A stretch of DNA of 64,000 nt, from assembly GCA_013297885.1 (NCBI GenBank), contig JAAFIR010000023.1, positions 1-64,000 on the forward strand. The letters are read 5' to 3'. Within the stretch, counting starts at the first letter, position 1. The number at the start of each line of letters is the position of its first letter. A program made the translations under genes and the position numbers. Below, one piece after another: positions 1-42,609 of this stretch. The notes under the pieces were generated by a model, which was not told where the DNA came from, did no database searches, and worked only from the letters and a program-made list of their open reading frames with translations. The DNA is from Leptospirales bacterium (GTDB taxonomy: Bacteria > Spirochaetota > Leptospiria > Leptospirales > Leptospiraceae).

Positions 1-729
1 ATACGATTCATATAGAGATGCCGCTAATCCGGTTCAACCCCGCGTATGTGGGGAATAGAAAAATATTTTCTCTTGATAATTCTTTACGTTCGGTTCAACC
101 CCGCGTATGTGGGGAATAGAATCTGCAAAAGCAATTGAAGATACAAAAAAACGGTTCAACCCCGCGTATGTGGGGAATAGGACAGAAAAAGAATTAAGAG
201 AAAAATCTTTATCGGTTCAACCCCGCGTATGTGGGGAATAGATGAAAATTTATGTAACTAAAGATACTGAAAGCGGTTCAACCCCGCGTATGTGGGGAAT
301 AGAAAGAAACTACCCATAGCAAACAGATTCCCTACGGTTCAACCCCGCGTATGTGGGGAATAGGAGCCAAGAGCAAAACCAAAATAAAAATATAGCGGTT
401 CAACCCCGCGTATGTGGGGAATAGTATAACCCGTCACAATTTTTCTCGCAATTTTCCGGTTCAACCCCGCGTATGTGGGGAATAGTTTATATTTATTTTT
501 TTTAATTCAAATTCATGCGGTTCAACCCCGCGTATGTGGGGAATAGGTCTACTGGTTCTATACCTAATGAAGTTACTCAGGTTCAACCCCGCGTATGTGG
601 GGAATAGCAACTGGTTCAGTTCTTCCAAATCTCCAAAATCGGTTCAACCCCGCGTATGTGGGGAATAGATTCGTTGTTAATTCTACCAGTCCCAAAATTA
701 CGGTTCAACCCCGCGTATGTGGGGAATAG
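1..729 (-). CRISPR. Type I-E CRISPR array, 12 repeats, continues beyond left edge
   Basis: Twelve 29-bp repeats start at 30, 91, 152, 213, 274, 335, 396, 457, 518, 579, 640 and 701, an exact 61-bp period giving 32-bp spacers. All are identical except the one at 579, whose first base is A instead of C. The plus strand begins CGGTTCAACCCC and ends GTGGGGAATAG. The reverse complement has the I-E layout: a CCCC...GGGG hairpin followed by an 8-nt 3' handle TTGAACCG, like the E. coli handle ATAAACCG. crRNA is therefore read leftward on the minus strand, the same direction as the cas operon, and the leader end is at 729. Uniform repeats suggest an array still maintained. Positions 1-29 are part of another spacer. 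No spacer matches elsewhere in this window by eye. Confidence 0.99.
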
Positions 730-1358: not shown

Positions 1359-1529
1359 ATGTGTGAGGACAAAGAAACAAAAGAAGAAGAAGTTTCTATT
1401 GCTACAAATAAACCTTCGATTGGTCTTGGTCCAGCTCTTAGTCATTTAAGTGAGAAAGAAGCTTATAAAGAATTAGCAAAAAGAAACAAAAAATATTCGA
1501 AAGAAATTAATGAAGGGCGAATTATTTGA
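1359..1529 (+). CDS. Small hypothetical protein with SIGLG motif, 56 aa
   Basis: The frame is open from a TTG at 1284, but the ATG at 1359 has a good AAAGGA ribosome binding site 9 bases upstream and is preferred. The product is strongly charged with Glu/Lys-rich ends and a central motif KPSIGLGPALSHLSEKEA followed by a helical tail. The same S-I-G-L-G core in a similar setting occurs in the minus-strand small protein at 2215-2406, hinting at two diverged members of one family on either side of the decayed block. The stop TGA overlaps the TTG start of the pseudogene that follows. Function unknown. Confidence 0.45.
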   Translation: MCEDKETKEEEVSIATNKPSIGLGPALSHLSEKEAYKELAKRNKKYSKEINEGRII

Positions 1530-3030: not shown

Positions 3031-3223
3031 GCGAAAGGGATTGAAGCGTTTCTGAATAGCCTCGGACTTTAGTCTGAGGATTCAGAAGTAGCGTAAAGCC
3101 CGGTTTTTCGAAAATGTTGAATTAAAAATGAAAAATTAAGAATGAGTTTTAATTCATTTAATTTTACATTCTTCATTTTAAATTCAACATTTTTTCTGCG
3201 AAGCAGAAAAGAAAAATTCGCCC
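3031..3223 (+). repeat. Dispersed two-hairpin repeat (Flavo-1-like), copy 1
   Basis: Left anchor GCGAAAGGGATTGAAGCG (3031-3048), a hairpin with CTGAAT/ATTCAG arms, middle anchor AGTAGCGTAAAGCCCGG, a long imperfect inverted repeat (arms near 3112-3150 and 3165-3195, GTTGAATT...AATTCAAC), right anchor TTCGCCC ending at 3223. The right end lies 6 bases beyond the stop codon of cas2. The consensus was built from the copies listed separately. Confidence 0.9.
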
Positions 3224-3229
3224 AAACTT

Positions 3230-3559
3230 TTATTTAAGCTCTTCATCATTTTTGGATTCTTCTTCATTTTTTTTAGACCTAGTTTTTTTTACTGGTCTTG
3301 CGAGTAATTGGATTCCATCAAAATTTAAAACTTCTCTATCGGGATCACCATTTGATAAAATTCCATATCCTTGTTCATTGTTTGTTTTATAAATCATAAT
3401 CGCAGACAAACACCAATCATCTGTTATCTTCTGCCAAAGTTTATCTCTCACTCTTGCATTAATGCTTGCAACAAATACTCCTGACTTCACTTCAATGGCT
3501 AACCGCGACATCTCGCCCTTCTGGGAAAGGGTAGATTTCTCCAGCATAATCACTACCAT
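3230..3559 (-). CDS. cas2: CRISPR-associated endonuclease Cas2 (type I-E)
   Basis: 109 aa. The start MVVIMLEKSTLSQKGEMSRL, then AIEVKSGVFVASINARVRDKLW, then NNEQGYGILSNGD and VLNFDGIQLL follow the Cas2e pattern throughout. The last 20 residues are a Lys/Glu-rich tail. Cas2 forms the structural core of the Cas1-Cas2 spacer integrase. The chosen start agrees with the family N-terminus and places the first 68 bases inside the 3' end of cas1 in another frame, so the two genes are strongly coupled. It is the last gene of the operon, followed within 6 bases by a copy of the dispersed repeat. Confidence 0.97.
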   Translation of the reverse strand: MVVIMLEKSTLSQKGEMSRLAIEVKSGVFVASINARVRDKLWQKITDDWCLSAIMIYKTNNEQGYGILSNGDPDREVLNFDGIQLLARPVKKTRSKKNEEESKNDEELK

Positions 3560-4391
3560 AAATTAACTCCTTCATATCTGGAATTATTTTTTTCATAATT
3601 TTCATTTCTCTAAATTTATCTCTCATTCTAAATCGAACTTCTCTTTCAATTTGGAATGTAGTTTGTTTAACTGTTTCAAATGCAAGTGGTATTGTAAGCT
3701 CTGCTTTATATAAGTCTGCAATATCATATACAAATGAAAGTTGTTTTCCAGTATGCACAAATCCAATCGCAGTTGAAAATCCACAAGCTAAAATTGCTGC
3801 ATGAACAACTCCATACAAACAAGAATTTGCTGATGACAATGCTCTGTTAATTGGATCACCATAATTCCAATCTGTTTGGTTGTAATTTCTACCAGACCAA
3901 ACTACTCCATATTTTTCAGAACACTCAGAATAAATTTTTCTTACTCTGGCTCCTTCCATTCCACGAATTTGTTCTATACTTGCATTTTCTTTTATTTCAT
4001 CTGTAAATCTTTTTTGGTACATTGCTCTTACTACTCTATCTCTTTTTTTTTCATCTGCATACATTTCAATTTGTTGTAGCAAATTTCTAGACGAATAAGT
4101 TCCTGTATATCCAGCAGAATAAAATCGCACACCCATTTCACCAGTCCATGCAAGTAAACATCTACTATCTGAAATTCTTTTGATAGCTTCATGTGTGATA
4201 CTTGTGCCAGGTCCAAGCATTAACAAAACTAATGTCTCTATTGGAATCGGAACATTTTTTTCTATTCCATCTGCTGTAAAATAATGAAACGCAACTGATT
4301 TTTGGTATTGGTCTATTGTTCCTTTTTCAAAATACAAATAAGACCAATTATCTTCAAACTTTGGTAACTCTTGTAAATCACGATTCGGCAT
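3492..4391 (-). CDS. cas1: CRISPR-associated integrase Cas1 (type I-E)
   Basis: 299 aa, normal for Cas1e. The N-terminal beta domain leads to LGPGTSITHEAI (about 59-70). The metal ligands are Glu146 in IRGMEGARVR, His213 in GFVHTGKQL, and Asp223 and Asp226 in VYDIADLYK, each shifted by five from the E. coli residues, so the enzyme looks catalytically intact. It inserts new spacers together with Cas2. Its ATG follows directly on the TAA of the RAYT gene with no base between, and its 3' end overlaps cas2 by 68 bases. Confidence 0.98.
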   Translation of the reverse strand: MPNRDLQELPKFEDNWSYLYFEKGTIDQYQKSVAFHYFTADGIEKNVPIPIETLVLLMLGPGTSITHEAIKRISDSRCLLAWTGEMGVRFYSAGYTGTYSSRNLLQQIEMYADEKKRDRVVRAMYQKRFTDEIKENASIEQIRGMEGARVRKIYSECSEKYGVVWSGRNYNQTDWNYGDPINRALSSANSCLYGVVHAAILACGFSTAIGFVHTGKQLSFVYDIADLYKAELTIPLAFETVKQTTFQIEREVRFRMRDKFREMKIMKKIIPDMKELIYGSDYAGEIYPFPEGRDVAVSH

Positions 4392-4991
4392 TTATGCAAC
4401 CTTTTTTAAAAAATGTCTTCTTGAATTTTCCTGAATATATTTTCTGATAAAATACAAAGATTTTTCATCTTTAATCACTTTATCATAATATCTTGAGACC
4501 CACTCAAACTCTTTCAATCCCTCCTTATGTATAAGAAAAGATGTTTTTGCTTTAAAGTGTCTTATGATTTTTCCAAGATGCATTTCTTTTTTCTGCATAA
4601 GTATCCATGACTTTCTATCAGTATCTGTAAGGACTTGATTAATCAAGTCCTTACGGGATGTGTCCTTAGGGGATGTGTCCATACGGGATGTGTCCATACA
4701 GGATCTGTCCCTGTTGAGATCATTATCTTTTGATTGATATCTCATCTCTAATATGAGATGTATATGATCTGGCATGATGATAAACTCATCCAGCTTTATA
4801 AAAGGGAAAGCTTGTTCAAGAGAAAACAAACATTTAAGAGCAATTTTACCAAATACGGAAAGCTGAACATTTTCAAAAAATAAATTTCCGAAAATGGGAT
4901 ATCTATCCTTTACAATTACTGTTATAAAATAGTAACCATCACTAGAATAATGATAATCTAACAATCTATTATTTTTTCTATGCCCTCCCAT
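4392..4991 (-). CDS. REP-associated tyrosine transposase (RAYT/TnpA-REP, Y1 family) inside the cas operon
   Basis: 199 aa. The N-terminus (HRKNNRLLDYHYSSDGYYFIT) and the HUH metal motif H76-I77-H78 in MPDHIHLILE are typical of Y1 transposases. C-terminal WVSRYYDKVIKDEKSL and FIRKYIQENS match the segment that carries the single catalytic tyrosine (Y168 or Y169 here). RAYTs are single-strand nucleases that process REP hairpins. The gene begins 3 bases after casE ends and stops exactly at the cas1 ATG, on the same strand, so it is a translated member of the operon and not an insertion that broke a gene. Residues about 93-122 are encoded by a tandem repeat plus a perfect palindrome and form a low-complexity loop (MDTSRMDTSPKDTSRKD). 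Family assignment is firm; any CRISPR role is inference. Confidence 0.93.
   Translation of the reverse strand: MGGHRKNNRLLDYHYSSDGYYFITVIVKDRYPIFGNLFFENVQLSVFGKIALKCLFSLEQAFPFIKLDEFIIMPDHIHLILEMRYQSKDNDLNRDRSCMDTSRMDTSPKDTSRKDLINQVLTDTDRKSWILMQKKEMHLGKIIRHFKAKTSFLIHKEGLKEFEWVSRYYDKVIKDEKSLYFIRKYIQENSRRHFLKKVA
4627..4714. repeat. 28-bp perfect palindrome plus four 15-bp tandem units inside the RAYT gene
   Basis: Positions 4627-4654 form a perfect palindrome, arms GTAAGGACTTGATT and its complement. It is followed by four 15-bp units at 4655, 4670, 4685 and 4700 (consensus GGGATGTGTCCATAC) that look derived from the palindrome's right arm. The length is a multiple of three in effect: the reading frame passes through intact. 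The ten outer bases GTAAGGACTT recur in the palindrome of the repeat copy at 28213-28332. Confidence 0.9.
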
Positions 4992-4994
4992 ACT

Positions 4995-5747
4995 TTATGC
5001 TCTTGCTAACATCAACATACCACATCCAAATGCTTTCCCAGATCCAATTCCAGTGGAATATGCTTTTTTAAACAATTCAGTATTTGTTACTCTAAGAATT
5101 CCCTGAAAATGAACTGTATGCAGTTTGATGTTGTGGGTTAGGTTTGGAGTTTTTTTGGAAATATTTTCTTCTTCCCCTTTTGAAAAATGTACGCTTTGGA
5201 TTTTAAAACCAGATTGTTCAGATTTTCGATTGAACCAATCAACTTGCTCATTATCTTTATAAATTCCAACTCGCTTAGATTTAATTTTTTCCCAATCTTC
5301 TTTTTTTAAAGAATTTGAAAGTTGTTCAATTTTATTTTTGATTTCCATTTTATCAGTTAAACCTTCTAGCTCTTTTTTAAAAAAGCTATGATGATCTTTA
5401 ATAGATTTTGTAGGATTTGCAATTAATGAAAATCGAAAAGATACTCTTTCCTCAATGAAGTTTTTAAAATTCAAATTTAAAATTTTTGGTTGCTTTTTTA
5501 AAAACTCTTCGCTGTTAAAAGCATTTTCCCATGAAGGTAAAATATTAGATAAAACTAATATTCTTGGTTTTAATTCTCCTGCTTCTTTAAATTCTTCTTC
5601 AAGCCTAAACAAAAAATCTGGATTAATTTTTTCTGTTTTTAATTTTTCAAAACCCATCCATAGTCTTTGGTGAATTTTATAAGGATTTGAAATCCAATGA
5701 ATTGCTTTTGGATTATTTGTTTCAATTTCTAAATTAGATAAATACAT
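4995..5747 (-). CDS. casE: CRISPR crRNA endoribonuclease Cas6e (CasE)
   Basis: 250 aa. His26 in NPYKIHQRLW is the expected catalytic histidine of Cas6e. The C-terminus GIGSGKAFGCGMLMLARA is the family's glycine-rich RNA-binding loop. The enzyme cuts pre-crRNA at the base of the repeat hairpin, leaving the 8-nt handle, and remains in Cascade. Its ATG abuts the TAA of casD directly, and the RAYT gene starts 3 bases after its stop. Confidence 0.97.
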   Translation of the reverse strand: MYLSNLEIETNNPKAIHWISNPYKIHQRLWMGFEKLKTEKINPDFLFRLEEEFKEAGELKPRILVLSNILPSWENAFNSEEFLKKQPKILNLNFKNFIEERVSFRFSLIANPTKSIKDHHSFFKKELEGLTDKMEIKNKIEQLSNSLKKEDWEKIKSKRVGIYKDNEQVDWFNRKSEQSGFKIQSVHFSKGEEENISKKTPNLTHNIKLHTVHFQGILRVTNTELFKKAYSTGIGSGKAFGCGMLMLARA

Positions 5748-6479
5748 TTATTTTTTCTCCATTTTGTAAAATTCTTTTCTTTCACTAAATTGCCAACGTT
5801 TGCGACTTAACACTTCATCTCGCCTAGTTCTAATTTCACTAAATTGGCTTTCTTCATCTTCCCAAATATATTCTATAGATTTTGAATTTAATTTTTTATT
5901 CTCAAAAAAATATTCTACATTTTGATTATGAAAATTTTCTTTTAATTTTTTTTCATAATCTTGAAACGCTAAAAATAAATTTTTTTCCTTTATCAAATTT
6001 GGAAATAAAGGAGAAGCCATCACAGCTGACTTTCGTCCAAGAAATAAAGAAAAAACAGGTTGATTTAGATTTTTTTGAATATTCTCCAAATCAATGGAAT
6101 CCTTTTTTTTCCAAATACAAACATCATACAAAGAATCCATTCTATAATCTCTGGAAGATAAAATTGTGTTCAATTCAAATTTATCTCTTAGTTCATCTTT
6201 TCTGGTTGAGTGTGTAAATTTACTTTTACCGGGAGTTTGAATTGTGTGATAGTCTCTTAACAAAATTCCTGAACTAAACACTTTCACTCCAAATGACAAT
6301 GAGTTTGTGAGCATTAAATGTTTATCTTCCTCTTCTCTTCTAAATCCCATTGCAGCTGAAATGAGTCCAATTACAGCTGACTTTGAAGGGTAAGAAAAAC
6401 TATTTCGATTTTCACCAACGGCAATCTCACCCCAAGATACGATTGGACCATACAACCGAAAGATTAAATATTCTTTCAT
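5748..6479 (-). CDS. casD: Cascade subunit Cas5e (CasD)
   Basis: 243 aa. The N-terminus MKEYLIFRLYGPIVSWGEIA, then NRNSFSYPSKSAVIGLISAAMG is the characteristic Cas5 RAMP start. Later SSGILLRDYHTIQTP and, near the end, TRRDEVLSRKRWQF are also family-typical. Cas5e caps the 5' handle of the crRNA in Cascade. It starts 2 bases after casC and its stop abuts the casE start. Confidence 0.97.
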   Translation of the reverse strand: MKEYLIFRLYGPIVSWGEIAVGENRNSFSYPSKSAVIGLISAAMGFRREEEDKHLMLTNSLSFGVKVFSSGILLRDYHTIQTPGKSKFTHSTRKDELRDKFELNTILSSRDYRMDSLYDVCIWKKKDSIDLENIQKNLNQPVFSLFLGRKSAVMASPLFPNLIKEKNLFLAFQDYEKKLKENFHNQNVEYFFENKKLNSKSIEYIWEDEESQFSEIRTRRDEVLSRKRWQFSERKEFYKMEKK

Positions 6480-6481
6480 AT

Positions 6482-7540
6482 CTAATCTTCCTGTACAAAT
6501 GTTGAAATTGCACTTAAACTACCTTCACCAGTTAAAACATTAAAAGAAATTTCTGAAGTATTGGTATCACCATAAACTTTAGAAAAATTATTTTTCATTT
6601 TTACAATTTCTTCAATTGATTTTGTCAAAACATCTTTGTCTTCGATTTGCTTTAGAAATGCTGCATGAAGAGATCTTGGTTGTGAGTTTCCTTTTTCTGC
6701 AAGACAATACATTGCTCTAGCACGAGATGCAAAACTATTTTGCTTTCCTGTAGGTGAAACAGTTGTGCAAGCTTCTAGTAAAGCAGATAGAGTTTGTTTG
6801 GTGAGTTCTAAATTATTATTTAAGTTTGATAAAAGTAATTCTCTATCAATACAAATATATAAATAAAATAGCCCAGCTCCAAATTCAGTATCTCCAAGAT
6901 GTCCTGCTCCAGCATCCACATCATTTTTATTCAGATCATCAATTGCCGTAAAAAAATCATCTTCCACTGCAACTTTATGAACTGTAATTGCATGTGCTAC
7001 TTGAATAGATGCTTCTTTATTAAATGCTGGAGAAGATGCCAGCATCCTTCCAAACATGGCTATATCTGCTGAAGTATTTTCCTTTTTAAGTAACTTCAAT
7101 TCTGCTTCAGATGGTGCTTTTTTTTCTAATACAAGTTTAGCGACAAGCGCATCAATTGCATTTTTTTCTTCGATACTGAAATGAGATAATTGCTCAATTT
7201 CTAAATCATTATTTGGTGAATCTTTTTTCTCAGCTTTTAATTTACCAAATACTCCTGCGATGCTTTTTGCCCAATCTCTTGCATCTTTTTCTTTAATACC
7301 TTTTTCAATCAATTGATTGTATATTTGAATCCCCATTTCTTTAGTTCTAGTTCCTATATGTCCTGAAAGTTTTTCTTTGAATGAATCAGAAGTTCTCCAA
7401 GCACGTTTTAAACTTTGAGAAGAAATTCTAAGCCGATTCACCCCTCCTAAGATTGCTGTTTTTGGTCGTCCCAAATCATCTCTGTTTAAGTTGGATGGAG
7501 GGTAAGAAGTTAGTAAGTGTAGTTGAATGAATCTATTCAT
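6482..7540 (-). CDS. casC: Cascade backbone subunit Cas7e (CasC)
   Basis: 352 aa from the ATG at 7540. The frame is open six codons further, but AAGGAG lies 7 bases before this ATG and the family begins at MNRFIQLHLLTSYPPSNLNR. Typical Cas7e segments: NRDDLGRPKTAILGGVNRLR, RISSQSLKRAWR, AHAITVHKVAVEDDFF, and GDTEFGAGLFYLY. Six copies of this protein line the crRNA in Cascade. It overlaps casB by 8 bases. Confidence 0.97.
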   Translation of the reverse strand: MNRFIQLHLLTSYPPSNLNRDDLGRPKTAILGGVNRLRISSQSLKRAWRTSDSFKEKLSGHIGTRTKEMGIQIYNQLIEKGIKEKDARDWAKSIAGVFGKLKAEKKDSPNNDLEIEQLSHFSIEEKNAIDALVAKLVLEKKAPSEAELKLLKKENTSADIAMFGRMLASSPAFNKEASIQVAHAITVHKVAVEDDFFTAIDDLNKNDVDAGAGHLGDTEFGAGLFYLYICIDRELLLSNLNNNLELTKQTLSALLEACTTVSPTGKQNSFASRARAMYCLAEKGNSQPRSLHAAFLKQIEDKDVLTKSIEEIVKMKNNFSKVYGDTNTSEISFNVLTGEGSLSAISTFVQED

Positions 7541-8087
7541 TGTTTGCTCCTTGTGCAATTGTATTTTCTAGTCCTTCATTATCATTTTCGCTTTTGCTGC
7601 TTGTTCCATAATAATCATAAGCCCATCTTTTTTTAACTGAGTCTCCCCAGAAATAAAGTGATGAAAATAGATCAATTATGTTTGCTTTGAAATCTATATG
7701 GTGAATGACTCGAATTATCTTTTGATAAAATAATTCATCATTTGCTATATTAGAATATTGTAATATTCTTCTAAACCGAATATCACTCACTAAAGCTTGT
7801 TCACTCCCAGATTTCTTAGTGGAAAGTTTTCTTGCAAAAGAAATGGTATCATTTTCTTTCACATGAGATAAAATTCCTGCTATAGCACAAATTTTATCAG
7901 AGGAAAGATTTTCACCTTCGACTTTTTTTAGTTGACTTAAAAGTATTTGACTACTTGGAATAAATACAGTTTCAGGAGGTGAAGTGCATCTTCTTAAATT
8001 TGCTTTCTGACCGTTTCTAGTATGTAAATAATTCCACCAATCCAAAATTACTTTTCTGCTTTCTGAATTCTCTTCTTTCAAATTCAT
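7533..8087 (-). CDS. casB: Cascade small subunit Cse2 (CasB, Cas11e)
   Basis: 184 aa, within the usual range. It opens with VILDWWNYLHTRNGQKANLRR followed by CTSPPETVFIP, the normal Cse2 start. LVSDIRFRRILQ and KIIRVIHHIDFKANIIDL match the C-terminal helical bundle. It stabilises the target and displaced strand in Cascade. Its ATG overlaps the casA stop (ATGA) and its end overlaps casC. Confidence 0.95.
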   Translation of the reverse strand: MNLKEENSESRKVILDWWNYLHTRNGQKANLRRCTSPPETVFIPSSQILLSQLKKVEGENLSSDKICAIAGILSHVKENDTISFARKLSTKKSGSEQALVSDIRFRRILQYSNIANDELFYQKIIRVIHHIDFKANIIDLFSSLYFWGDSVKKRWAYDYYGTSSKSENDNEGLENTIAQGANNE

Positions 8088-9787
8088 TTCTTTTTTACTC
8101 CTTTTGTTTCTTTTTTCTTTGCATTTGGTTCTACTTTGTTTTTCTTTAATTCTGTTTTTTCTTTTTCCTCACTTTTTTTTGAACTTGGTTTTTCTTTTAC
8201 GGGTAAACCAAATTCAGATTTTATTTTATCTCCTAAATTCCAGGAAATTAATCCTTTTCTTGCTTCAACAATTCGTTTTAAATTTTCAAATTCTACTGAG
8301 CCAGATTCCACATACAATTCAAAAACTTTTAATGATTCATCATTCAAATACTTCAACCATTCTTCTTTTGATTGATTTTCAAATGGAATTTCTTTTCCTA
8401 AATCATCTCGAATCTTTTCAGCAAGATTATAAAATCTAGTTTCAGTTGCTTTAAAAAAACTAATTTTTAAATAATCAAAATCACCTCTTGGTTTTGCTCC
8501 TTGATTGAACCAAGCATCTTTAACTTTTGTTTGTAAATTATTTGCAATCCCGGTTGATACTTGTAAAATTTTGGATATTATGGATTCATACTTTTCCATA
8601 AAATTTGGATCAATATTATAAATTGGAATGATGCTTTCATACCAATTTCTAGCTTTCATATTATCCATATCAAAACCAAATGCCCAAACGATTGTTTGAT
8701 CTTCTTTTAATTTTCTATTTTCAGAAAAGTAGTGCAAGACTTGTGCACTTTTATCTTTATTTTTTATACCATAAACAAATGACATCCACTGGTTATATAT
8801 AATTCCACCAGGTTGAGGATGATACGGAAACCAAGTTTCACCAAGTTCTTTATCTTTTGTAAAATAATAAGGACTCAATAGATGAATCCACCCTCCGCCT
8901 CCATAATCAAGTCCGTAACCTTTTAAAAAATATGATTTGATGTTTTCATTTGATGCTTCGCTACAAATATCACATGTAATTGGTTCATTCGTTTTTTGTA
9001 ATTGAATTCTTCTTGGATAAGACCAATAGACTGAAAATGGATTCAAATCATTAATTGTGGCTTTATTTCCTTTAGAATTTTGTTTATAATATTTGTCACT
9101 TATCCATGGAAATACATTTTCAAAATTTTTATCTTTCTTTGGTTCTTTCTGGAACGAATCAACGGGGAGTATATTCAGCCAAATATCAGACCATAGAGTA
9201 TTCAATTCTAAATCTTCTTCTTTAATTGAATTAAATTTTAAAATAGTGGTTAGTGGACCTCCTCCCCTAATCGATGTTAAATGACCCTGTCCGCCAGAGG
9301 GTGAATTTGTTTGTAAAGTAAATAATGCTGTTGCAGCACAATGTTTACAAACATTTTCAACTGTACCTCTTTTAGTAAAAAAATCTTTGTTTTCTTTGAT
9401 TGTGTTTTCACCAGGTGCTTCAATTAATAACCCAGAAATACTAGATGAATTTGCACTTGAGTCTAATCCAATATCCTGCATAAATCTAATTTTCTCACCA
9501 AACAAATCAAATGCGAATGAAACTTTATCTGTTTCTTTTTTTAGTTTTTCAGAACTTGGTGGTTCATTAAAATTATCTTCCCATTCCATTTCATTTTTTG
9601 GTGCATAAATTGTTTGGAATAATCCAATTAAAAATTGATACAATGCTCCTTTAAAATCTGCTCTAGGTGTGATGATTTCTATTATGGGATTGGAATCAAT
9701 TTGATCAGTAATTTCATAAGGAGTTATTTTTTCTACCTCGCCGTTTTTTCTTTTCACTTGAATCCATTTGTCATTTAGAAGATTCAT
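8084..9787 (-). CDS. casA: Cascade large subunit Cse1 (CasA, Cas8e)
   Basis: 567 aa. The start MNLLNDKWIQVKRKNGEVEK is standard for Cse1. Cys pairs CKHC and CDIC suit the zinc site; GGRGG-type segments (SIRGGGPLTTIL) and YGLDYGGGGWIHLLSPYY are family motifs. Cse1 recognises the PAM and recruits Cas3. The last 40 residues form an unusual Lys/Glu-rich tail (EKEKTELKKNK, KKKETKGVKKK) beyond the normal four-helix domain. ATG overlaps the cas3 stop (ATGA); RBS AAGGAG upstream. Confidence 0.96.
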   Translation of the reverse strand: MNLLNDKWIQVKRKNGEVEKITPYEITDQIDSNPIIEIITPRADFKGALYQFLIGLFQTIYAPKNEMEWEDNFNEPPSSEKLKKETDKVSFAFDLFGEKIRFMQDIGLDSSANSSSISGLLIEAPGENTIKENKDFFTKRGTVENVCKHCAATALFTLQTNSPSGGQGHLTSIRGGGPLTTILKFNSIKEEDLELNTLWSDIWLNILPVDSFQKEPKKDKNFENVFPWISDKYYKQNSKGNKATINDLNPFSVYWSYPRRIQLQKTNEPITCDICSEASNENIKSYFLKGYGLDYGGGGWIHLLSPYYFTKDKELGETWFPYHPQPGGIIYNQWMSFVYGIKNKDKSAQVLHYFSENRKLKEDQTIVWAFGFDMDNMKARNWYESIIPIYNIDPNFMEKYESIISKILQVSTGIANNLQTKVKDAWFNQGAKPRGDFDYLKISFFKATETRFYNLAEKIRDDLGKEIPFENQSKEEWLKYLNDESLKVFELYVESGSVEFENLKRIVEARKGLISWNLGDKIKSEFGLPVKEKPSSKKSEEKEKTELKKNKVEPNAKKKETKGVKKK

Positions 9788-12555
9788 ATTTCTTCTCCTT
9801 CTTTAATTTTTTTAAAACCAATTTCTGAATTATAAAAACATTTCACTTGTTCTCCTTTTTTATCTTTTGCAAAACCTATCCAGTTTCCATTTTCTAATTT
9901 TAGTGGAATTAAAACTGAATACTTCCCTTTGTTTGGAAGTTTTTCTTTACAAATTTTGATTTGATTTTTTAAAATTGAATCATAATCCTCCCACTCAGAA
10001 TTTAAAATATAGGACATCACTGATACTTCAGAATTTGCCCAAGGAAAATCTCCTTCTTTATACCAAGATGATAGTTTACCATTTTCAAATTTTGCGAGAG
10101 TGATTTTGATAGATTCTTCACCTAATCTGGTTGGAGCATTTACATCGTCCCAAATCGAATTATTACCAACAGCAGTATAACCATCTTCAAATTTAATTTG
10201 GTTAATTCCTGCTTGAGCTGCTTTCTGATTATTTTTATTATTATTTTCATTTGTTATTTCAATCAAAGCATCTGGAATTTTTTCTTTTTCACTATAAACA
10301 AATTCAATCAGATTTCTTGCCTCTTCGGGCATTTTTAATTCTCCTTTTTCAAATAAAATTTTTGTTGTTAAAAATATTTTTCCATGATCGGGATACACAA
10401 ATGAACTACCTTTTAAAAAAGCACTAAACCAATTTTTATTTGGGGAGTGTGTTATTTCAGGAGAATGGATATACAAAATTGGTTTTTCTCTTTTGTCTTT
10501 TCCATCTATACGATTTCCATTTTCATCTCTAGTATGCCTATGCAGTCGTCCAGCTCTTTGGATAATTAAATCAATTGGTGCAATATCTGAAATCATTACA
10601 TCAAAATCCAAATCGAGAGATTGTTCGATTACTTGTGTTGCTATTACAAGTTTTCCATTTCTAATTTCAGAATTGCTAATTTTTCCAAAAGTAGATAGAA
10701 TATTTTTTTCTTTATCTAATCTATCTCCCATTGCAAATCTTGCATGAAACAATATTAGATTTTCTTTAGGTAATTTATTTGAAAAATATTCATAAGAATT
10801 CATTGCGTCTGAAACAGTGTTGCGAATCCAACAAACTGATTTTTTTTCATCTAAAGATTTTTGAATTAAGGAATAAATGTCTTCTTCCTTATGCAGAAAA
10901 TTAATTTTCACTGTTCTTTTTACTTCTTCTCTAGTTTCTAATTCTTTAAAAATAATCTCAGAATTTTTATATACTTGAGTGATTAATGGAAAATGATTAT
11001 TTAATTCATTATCTTGAGAATCTTCATCATTTGGTTTTTGAAAAGCAGATATAAATTCTTTTTTTAAATTTTCAGGAAGAGTTGCACTGAGTAAAATTAC
11101 ACTTCCGCCGATTCTGGCTTGTGCTTTTAATAAAGCTTTGATAAGACCATTCATATAAGAATCGTAAGCATGAATCTCATCTAGTATCAAAACTTTATTC
11201 ATTAACCCAATTAATCGAAGAGATTGAAATTTTGATAAAAGAATCGAAATCAATGCTTGGTCTATTGTGCCAATTGCTACATCAGATAGCATTGATTTTT
11301 TACTACTATCAGCAAGCCAACTTGCACAACTTGCACTTGCAGATTCTTCATCTTTACTATAAGATTTATCTTTTGATTTTGAATCGTATAAAATAGAATT
11401 GCTAAATTCTGAAGATAAATTTTTTGCTCCATGTGCTAATACTAGTGAAGGATTTGTGTTTTGTTCATAAATCTTTTTGTAAAAACTAGCAACTCTAGAA
11501 TACATTCCATTTGAAGTGGCCATAGTTGGTAGTCCAATAAACAATCCATCATAACCATTATTCAACATTAAACGTTTTGCTAGTATTAAGGCAGCTTCTG
11601 TTTTTCCCGACCCGGTGACATCTTCCAATATAAACAACTGAGGTTCTTTTTTTAATTCGAGTGAATGGCATTCATTTTGCAAAGGCGTTGGAGTAGTTAA
11701 ATATTTGAACAAATCTGTTGGGAAAGTATAAGATGAAACTTTTGAAGGAAGAATTCCAGCTTTTTTGATAGCTTCTTCTGCTCTAGGAATTGCAAATTCT
11801 TTCCAATATGTTTCAAGTGGTATAGAATCTGATTTGTACAAAAATATATCTTTATTCGAGCCAATCCAGTCGCATAACACTGATAATCCTGCAAGCCAAA
11901 AAGAAATATCTTTTAAATTTTTTGATATTGAATCAAATTCGTATTTTTCAAAATGAATTAAATCTTCTTCTCTAAAAAATAATTTATAGGTTTCAGTTAA
12001 AAATTGAAAAGAGTCTTCTTTATTATTTTGTGTAAAATAATCATCTAGCGGAACTGTGTTGTGAGTATAGCCAGTTTTAGAGGGAGGTCTGCCGTGATGA
12101 CCTGTGGTGATTGCAATCAAAATATTTAAAAAATATTTAATTGATTCTCCTTTTTCTGAGTTGAGATTAAAAAAGTTGGACTCTTTTAATCTTCCAGAAA
12201 AACCTTTCCTTTGTTTAATAAAAAATTCTTTCTCCCAAAGAATGTATCCTAAACTATCATGTCGAATATTATAAACTTTTGAAGTTTGATTTGGATAAAG
12301 TTTGGTATATATTTCTTTTATTTGTCCTTGAAACGCATCTGAAAATTTTCCCAAATCATGAATGGATAAAAAGAAAATAAATAATTTATGAAATATTGTT
12401 TTTTCAATTCTAGTAAGGTCAGAAAATTTATTTAGTAAATTTGGATTCTCCTTAAATAACACCTCACCCACTGCTGCCACATCAAGTGAATGATAGGGGA
12501 GTAAATGATAGTTCAATTCTAAATCTGCTTTTCCCCAATAGTTGTAGTAGCTCAT
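9784..12555 (-). CDS. cas3: CRISPR helicase-nuclease Cas3 (type I-E)
   Basis: 923 aa. The HD nuclease domain is complete: His22, His66-Asp67 in IHDLGKFSDAFQ, a later HD in RHDSLGYILW, and GHHGRPP. The SF2 helicase follows: Walker A TGSGKTEAALIL (about 312-320), the DEAD-type box DEIHAYD near 459, LLSATLP, motif V QVIEQSLDLDFD and motif VI QRAGRLHRH. It degrades DNA marked by Cascade. It is first of the core cas genes, begins 3 bases after the KTSC gene and ends overlapping casA. No domain is missing. Confidence 0.97.
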   Translation of the reverse strand: MSYYNYWGKADLELNYHLLPYHSLDVAAVGEVLFKENPNLLNKFSDLTRIEKTIFHKLFIFFLSIHDLGKFSDAFQGQIKEIYTKLYPNQTSKVYNIRHDSLGYILWEKEFFIKQRKGFSGRLKESNFFNLNSEKGESIKYFLNILIAITTGHHGRPPSKTGYTHNTVPLDDYFTQNNKEDSFQFLTETYKLFFREEDLIHFEKYEFDSISKNLKDISFWLAGLSVLCDWIGSNKDIFLYKSDSIPLETYWKEFAIPRAEEAIKKAGILPSKVSSYTFPTDLFKYLTTPTPLQNECHSLELKKEPQLFILEDVTGSGKTEAALILAKRLMLNNGYDGLFIGLPTMATSNGMYSRVASFYKKIYEQNTNPSLVLAHGAKNLSSEFSNSILYDSKSKDKSYSKDEESASASCASWLADSSKKSMLSDVAIGTIDQALISILLSKFQSLRLIGLMNKVLILDEIHAYDSYMNGLIKALLKAQARIGGSVILLSATLPENLKKEFISAFQKPNDEDSQDNELNNHFPLITQVYKNSEIIFKELETREEVKRTVKINFLHKEEDIYSLIQKSLDEKKSVCWIRNTVSDAMNSYEYFSNKLPKENLILFHARFAMGDRLDKEKNILSTFGKISNSEIRNGKLVIATQVIEQSLDLDFDVMISDIAPIDLIIQRAGRLHRHTRDENGNRIDGKDKREKPILYIHSPEITHSPNKNWFSAFLKGSSFVYPDHGKIFLTTKILFEKGELKMPEEARNLIEFVYSEKEKIPDALIEITNENNNKNNQKAAQAGINQIKFEDGYTAVGNNSIWDDVNAPTRLGEESIKITLAKFENGKLSSWYKEGDFPWANSEVSVMSYILNSEWEDYDSILKNQIKICKEKLPNKGKYSVLIPLKLENGNWIGFAKDKKGEQVKCFYNSEIGFKKIKEGEEI

Positions 12556-12558
12556 AAA

Positions 12559-12867
12559 TTATCCCCTTTTTATCGCATGGTAAACTGGTTTGATATAAGA
12601 ATCTAAATATCTTCCTTTTGAACCTGAATGCAAAAGATTTTGGAATTCAGAATAAGGAACATTTAAATATTCATAGACAGAGTTATTTTTAAAATATATA
12701 CAAAGTATAGAAGTTTGGTTATCAAAACAGACTTCATCCAAATTGCTTGAAACAACATTATAACATTCCAAATTATTTCTCCTTAAAAATTTTATTCTTG
12801 CTTTTACACCTAATTCAAAATGAATTTCATTAAGTGCGAAATGAGATGTTTTCTTAGAACATCCCAT
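12559..12867 (-). CDS. KTSC-domain protein directly upstream of cas3
   Basis: 102 aa. Residues about 38-100 match the KTSC domain: VVSSNLDEVCFDNQ, LCIYFKNNSVYEYLNVPYSE, LLHSGSKGRYLDSYIKP and YHAIK. The domain is a small beta-rich module of uncertain role found alone or fused to nucleic-acid enzymes. The first 37 residues (SKKTSHFALNEIHFELGVKARI) are an extension not seen in minimal KTSC proteins. The gene ends 3 bases before the cas3 ATG, so it is probably transcribed with the cas genes. Domain call is strong; a CRISPR function is only suggested by position. Confidence 0.85.
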   Translation of the reverse strand: MGCSKKTSHFALNEIHFELGVKARIKFLRRNNLECYNVVSSNLDEVCFDNQTSILCIYFKNNSVYEYLNVPYSEFQNLLHSGSKGRYLDSYIKPVYHAIKRG

Positions 12868-28212: not shown

Positions 28213-28332
28213 GGGCGAATTTTTTTAAGTAAGGACTTAATTAATTAAGTCCTTACTTAAAAAAACCGAGCTTTCAACTTCTATCAAAAAATTTCATATG
28301 AAATTTTTTGATACCGTCTCAATCTCTTTCGC
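28213..28332 (-). repeat. Dispersed two-hairpin repeat, copy 7, with a 36-bp perfect palindrome
   Basis: Minus strand: GCGAAAGAGATTGAGACGG, hairpin ATCAAAAAATTTC and complement, GTTGAAAGCTCGG, then a perfect palindrome at 28225-28260 with inner arms GTAAGGACTTAATT, then ATTCGCCC. The palindrome arms share GTAAGGACTT/AAGTCCTTAC with the palindrome inside the RAYT gene. Confidence 0.9.
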
Positions 28333-42443: not shown

Positions 42444-42609
42444 GGGCGAATTTTTGCTAACGCCCTCAGGGCTGCAAAAACCGTGCTTTACGCTACTTCC
42501 CAAAAAAATGGGTCTTTTTTGACAGCGGGTAGCTACCCGCTGTGCAGTTGGCTGCAGCCCACTGTCTAATATAGCCCTGTTTCTTGGGAAACGCTTCAAT
42601 CACTTTCGC
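42444..42609 (-). repeat. Dispersed two-hairpin repeat, copy 9
   Basis: Minus strand: GCGAAAGTGATTGAAGCG, a composite hairpin (TTCCCAAGAAAC..., with inner GCGGGTAGCTACCCGC), GTAGCGTAAAGCACGG, hairpin TTTTTGCAGCCCTGAGGGC and ATTCGCCC. It begins 5 bases after the permease stop codon. Confidence 0.85.

Follow-up and report, generated by a model that had tools for sequence, protein, structure and literature searches.

A RAYT gene between casE and cas1 of a type I-E operon, probably a mobile passenger of a defence operon

To our knowledge, RAYTs belong to the small set of bacterial transposases that have been domesticated, and we know of no settled reason for their persistence. Their group 4, to which the gene described here is assigned, reportedly comes from the classification of Bertels et al. 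of 2017. The gene of E. coli TnpAREP is presumably a REP-flanked REPtron outside any defence operon, and Tyr115 of this protein (PDB 4ER8) is taken here to be the catalytic residue. Subclass 2.4 of TnpAREP has been equated with RAYT group 4, and a REP in frame between the HUH motif and the tyrosine has been given as its unique trait, with no mention of CRISPR, restriction or defense in that work (Quentin et al., 2018; PMC6006769).

The window, that is, the whole stretch of 64,000 nucleotides from a Leptospirales bacterium that was analysed, carries a type I-E locus with a gene of this kind. The features of the locus are the following (cas genes by profile match, the RAYT by its open reading frame and profiles):

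25-729, minus strand: CRISPR array with 11 or more 61-nt units and with the repeat CGGTTCAACCCCGCGTATGTGGGGAATAG on the plus strand; it may extend past the window edge
3230-3559, minus strand: cas2 (I-E)
3492-4391, minus strand: cas1 (I-E), intact
4392-4991, minus strand: RAYT gene (TnpAREP-like, HUH/Y1), 199 aa, group 4/subclass 2.4 type
4995-5747, minus strand: casE/cas6e, the last effector gene, intact
5748-6479, minus strand: cas5e
6482-7558, minus strand: cas7e
7533-8087, minus strand: cse2
8084-9787, minus strand: cse1/cas8e
9784-12555, minus strand: cas3

The type I-E operon is complete, all eight cas genes being recognised and open (cas3-cse1-cse2-cas7-cas5-casE and cas1-cas2). The strand of the array is our assumption, made via the E. 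coli I-E repeat. A KTSC-domain gene (12559-12867) lies immediately upstream of cas3, on the same strand and after a gap of 3 nt. Elsewhere in the same genome, a second CRISPR remnant was observed (G000:C11:274-3387, L029), in which repeats resembling an array accompany a fragment of cas1 (50% identity, 2 TAG).

The RAYT frame, as read from the sequence, starts with ATG and has no internal stop. It is separated by 3 nt from casE, which ends at 4995 (TAA-AGT-ATG), and by 0 nt from cas1, which starts at 4391 (TAA-ATG). The first-pass annotation had described an intact gene at these spacings, with its HUH histidines and tyrosine region and with undamaged neighbours, and this description was correct; H76, H78 and the downstream Y185 are all present in the alignment. 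The protein was matched by Pfam Y1_Tnp with 31.5 bits, above the cut-off of 23, and by NCBIfam REP_Tyr_transpos (NF047646) with 50.8 bits (E 1.5e-13), under the model cut-off of 80. Since many group-A relatives likewise score below 80 bits, NF047646 is tuned to other RAYTs, and the RAYT/TnpAREP assignment is based on group-4 features and the 4ER8 match, not on this cut-off. When a profile of the RAYT relatives was compared with solved structures, one match was obtained, TnpAREP 4ER8 (E 7.8e-06). Of the motifs W-Q and Y-I-x-x-N-P, the residues W164, Y185, I186 and N189 are kept, with Q165 replaced by V and P190 by S. In the tree, the window RAYT forms a solitary long branch. It is the sole copy in its own genome (G000), across which PF01797 matched a distant IS200 TnpA at C42 and missed the window gene, and a plasmid search gave two weak matches (25% identity). 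No left and right hairpin ends of the IS200/IS605 type were found around the gene, the flanks of which measure just 3 and 0 nt.

The motifs and repeats of the gene, together with a related element of the window, are located as follows:

4437-4439, minus strand: codon of the family-conserved tyrosine Y185, aligned counterpart of Tyr 115 in E. coli TnpAREP (PDB 4ER8)
4627-4654, no strand assigned: perfect 28-nt palindrome GTAAGGACTTGATTAATCAAGTCCTTAC (REP-like, in frame; also written GTAAGGAC), from the sequence
4647-4706, minus strand: 15-nt tandem repeats (MDTSR-like peptide) beside the palindrome, in the variable HUH-Tyr linker, from the sequence
4758-4766, minus strand: HUH motif codons H76-I77-H78 (MPDHIHL), from the sequence, invariant in the family alignment
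28213-28313, plus strand: dispersed element with a variant of the RAYT palindrome (2 mismatches), from a pattern search

Neither the palindrome, which lies in the linker between the HUH motif and the tyrosine, nor the tandem repeats had been mentioned in the first-pass annotation. The palindrome is the only stem of at least 11 bp in the first 14 kb of the window. REP-like hairpins are dispersed in the host genome, with an exact copy of the 28 nt at G000:C5:65209-65236 and variants at about ten further sites, most of them within a larger element that has GGGCGAATT at one end; the gapped-pattern control was not below the forward count, and the evidence for dispersal consists of the near-identical full palindromes. 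The larger element, GGGCGAATT-[variable hairpin]-CCGNGCTTT, occurs in the window at 28213-28313 and 42444-42489 and gave 21 pattern matches in G000, in which the linkers are conserved and the hairpins vary; the reversed control pattern gave 0 matches. Additionally, GGGCGAATT ends at 1515-1523 (plus strand) and 3215-3223 (minus strand) bracket the stretch from the array to cas2.

An in-frame palindrome with a stem of at least 12 bp was found in 17 of the 29 group-A RAYTs, against 0/27 other RAYTs and 3/114 control ORFs. Both features of subclass 2.4, the REP-like palindrome in frame and the variable linker, are present in the window RAYT. Because the in-frame palindrome is given as a subclass 2.4 trait (PMC6006769), the gene appears to belong to an already described kind, that of the ordinary group-4/subclass-2.4 RAYTs. 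The in-frame palindrome was also considered as a novelty in itself, and this was dropped, as it is already in the same paper.

The first-pass annotation had regarded the RAYT as built into the I-E operon. Conserved presence of the gene in related I-E operons, as for a core or accessory component, was not found: none of the nearest Cas1 relatives (68-75% identity) has a RAYT before cas1. Among 80 I-E loci of other genomes (from the genome collection) and 20 Spirochaetota hits (genomes with a cas1 above the I-E cut-off), the casE/cas1 slot held a RAYT in one other case, L079 in G172, in which a RAYT reduced to its N- and C-terminal ends, its middle deleted, lies exactly between the two genes. 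A common origin of this remnant and the window RAYT was considered and rejected, as other RAYTs match the remnant with far higher scores; since it is nearer to these than to the window gene, it appears to have arrived independently. In G006, a family-mate within the Leptospiraceae, the slot is filled by a PIN-type (VapBC-like) toxin and a likely antitoxin, and in G040 by a HicB-HicA-like pair, both named from sequence. The proposal was thus abandoned, given the relatives without the gene, a second case that is deleted and unrelated, and toxin-antitoxin pairs in the same place; the survey of close relatives and other I-E loci that had been suggested as a check points to a lone insertion. On these comparisons, the window RAYT would be a lone insertion in its own lineage, in a slot that seems often to take cargo.

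It had also been argued that junctions of this kind would seldom result from a random hop. This was not supported, as tight junctions recur for the same RAYT group in operons without CRISPR. A RAYT of this group is flanked by two ABC permeases in L043, by hsdS and hsdM in L044, and by a type III methylase and a DUF4391 protein in L238; that of L039 lies downstream of a methylase fragment, and that of L055 is found amid what look like nuo genes. At these junctions the genes often overlap or stand a few bases apart. Tight, harmless junctions are a habit of the group.

RAYTs were also found at other CRISPR loci. In G002, of the same genus, a type I-B locus (L299) reads cas6-cas3-cas8-cas7-cas5, a small gene taken for a nucleotidyltransferase, the RAYT, cas4-cas1 and cas2, all on one strand; a further RAYT copy of this genome lies near a CRISPR array, at about 0.4 kb from the first of its 35 repeats (L298:13324-16749), on a 16.7-kb contig in which no cas genes were recognised. 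In G003, of the same genus, a RAYT follows cas5c-cas8c-cas7c of a I-C locus (L296), with no adaptation genes seen on the 7.3-kb contig. In G004, a RAYT stands on the opposite strand between cas12a and cas2 of a V-A locus (L297). This V-A locus is decayed, with cas12a in two pieces, cas2 kept and no cas1 or cas4 seen alongside (L297:2991-7860). Outside the family, in G131, cas3 of a I-C locus is preceded at about 0.3 kb by a RAYT. Between cas7c and cas4, that is, at the effector/adaptation boundary, the same locus holds a probable toxin-antitoxin pair of the PIN type (L300:3576-4497). Within the window's family, the effector/adaptation boundary holds RAYTs in I-E, I-B and I-C loci, and a RAYT lies between cas12a and cas2 in V-A; such positions in several CRISPR subtypes of one family are not predicted by plain passenger status alone. 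A general link between RAYTs and CRISPR across Spirochaetota was rejected. Since no RAYT was found near cas1 in 80 of 81 further Spirochaetota cas1 loci, within a fetched stretch of at most about 7 kb per side, their presence at CRISPR loci is a local habit and no rule of CRISPR.

The neighbours of these RAYTs were then counted more widely. An R-M or cas gene was the nearest neighbour at 14 of 43 group-A loci of Spirochaetota (the window left out), the types being HsdS, HsdM, HsdR, type III methylase, Cas7c, Cas12a, Cas2, Cas1 and Cas3. R-M or cas proteins made up 18 of 78 group-A neighbours. Among 122 proteins from random regions there were at most 5 of them (p 6e-5), and among 72 proteins next to RAYTs of the other group at most 4 (p 0.002). 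When each genome contributed its best locus alone, the count was 7/27 and the contrast with the other RAYT group was weaker (p 0.09). These enrichment counts were made with crude gene calling, with several loci from one genome and with statistics that ignore phylogeny. In Anaerolineae, a different phylum, at least 11 of the 60 neighbours at 32 group-A loci were type I R-M proteins. Homology controls, for which the query set was drawn from the RAYT neighbours themselves, detected no R-M or cas homologue in 653 control ORFs (0/123 in Spirochaetota, 0/252 in Anaerolineae, 0/278 in the same family). The enrichment of group-4 RAYTs in defence operons is strong and, seen in Spirochaetota, was replicated in Anaerolineae. 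The earlier idea that the placement of the window gene is meaningful was borne out in part, as to its non-random character (the boundary position in I-B and I-C, the cas12a-cas2 position, the defence enrichment), though not as to built-in I-E status. In the titles and opening abstracts of the searched literature, no earlier account that places a RAYT in a cas or R-M operon was found; within this literature, the placement in a cas operon is unusual and previously unreported, and the link between group-4 RAYTs and defence operons is new and testable.

The best explanation, to which we assign a probability of roughly 0.7, is that the window RAYT is a mobile passenger riding a defence operon. This reading is favoured because the gene is the sole copy in its genome and is absent from the nearest I-E loci, because toxin-antitoxin pairs (G006, G040) and a deleted, unrelated RAYT (G172) fill the same slot, and because of the hallmark palindrome of group 4, the defence enrichment and the tight nesting in unrelated operons. 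A group-4 RAYT would have inserted or recombined between the effector genes and cas1-cas2, with neither harmed. It would be transcribed from the cas promoter on a shared transcript, and the spacing suggests translation by stop-start coupling. Its activity, by analogy with TnpAREP, would be the cutting and joining of single-stranded REP-like hairpins, with the copy within its own frame and the further copies dispersed in the genome as candidate substrates. By settling at operon and module boundaries such a gene would gain transcription and coupled translation, and it would persist where hosts tolerate and share DNA, namely in defence operons; as these may accept insertions where modules meet and be transferred horizontally, group-4 RAYTs would accumulate there. 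The effect on cas1-cas2 expression is probably neutral or mildly tuning. Against passenger status, the catalytic residues are intact and there is no recent close copy, so that some selection or a recent arrival is needed. Neither RAYT ends (LE/RE) nor an empty sister site was found as proof of insertion.

Other explanations were weighed against the mobile passenger. It is doubtful that group-4 RAYTs are working parts of R-M operons and of operons of several CRISPR subtypes, each a hairpin-specific HUH nuclease, co-expressed with the effectors, by which defence genes would be moved, shuffled or diversified or ssDNA substrates provided. Pure chance, by which a member of a common transposase family landed in one cas operon with an ordinary junction, is unlikely: RAYTs are indeed abundant (NF047646 in 97 of 247 Spirochaetota genomes) and there is a single intact case in I-E, but group-4 RAYTs are enriched at R-M/cas operons in two phyla, and five CRISPR-adjacent RAYTs in one family compare with about 0.15-0.5 expected (Poisson P 1e-4 to 1e-7), an expectation that is a rough guess with CRISPR loci as about 0.6% or more of the genome.

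It is quite improbable that group-4 RAYTs are accessories which spread or diversify defence operons, for example through in-frame REP hairpins in specificity or methylase genes or through the mobilisation of modules. REP-like palindromes do occur in frame beside RAYTs in mod (two, L039:2134-3408), hsdS (L044:2-1393) and hsdR (two, L422:2-1468), which leaves room for a role that may change defence genes, and the enrichment in R-M and CRISPR operons agrees with this. However, the associations are patchy, RAYTs are also found in nuo- and ABC-transporter-like operons, and no such palindrome is present in the cas genes of the window.

A part in CRISPR adaptation, with the HUH nuclease trimming or supplying ssDNA substrates or acting on leader or repeat hairpins for Cas1-Cas2, is very improbable, and a role in spacer acquisition is unlikely: the RAYT, with HUH and Tyr intact, does lie directly upstream of cas1 in the window, as others lie before cas4-cas1-cas2 (L299, I-B) or between cas12a and cas2 (L297), but nearly all I-E loci and 80/81 other Spirochaetota cas1 loci are without it, that of L296 stands beside I-C effectors with no adaptation genes seen on its contig, that of L297 is on the opposite strand, the L079 remnant is decayed, and the role is poorly supported because the same RAYT group is equally common in R-M operons, without adaptation. 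As there is no adaptation step in R-M operons, the other half of the earlier suggestion, that the enzyme uses the cas operon for its expression, fits the data better.

The link between this RAYT group and R-M and CRISPR operons would offer a testable answer to the persistence of RAYTs, which may ride, or serve, defence operons, and it marks the effector/adaptation boundary as a slot in which small genes are carried. The toxin-antitoxin pairs lodged among cas genes (CreTA, PMC8501985, and the VapBC-like and HicAB-like pairs seen here) are likewise small extra genes between cas modules; the RAYT differs in being an HUH nuclease and not a toxin, with no antitoxin partner or CRISPR-guided control seen. 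The H-x-H and Tyr115 of E. coli TnpAREP (4ER8) align with the window RAYT, and that protein is of subclass 2.2, unlike the window gene. TnpAREP subclass 2.4 (Quentin et al., 2018; PMC6006769) shares with it the core of HUH and single Tyr with a variable linker between them, the in-frame REP palindrome in this linker and related palindromes in the host genome. In contrast to that subclass, the foot of the window palindrome is GTAA, not GT[AG]G, the conserved motifs WQ and NP read WV and NS, and the gene, without flanking REPs in its 3- and 0-nt gaps, is located in a cas operon.
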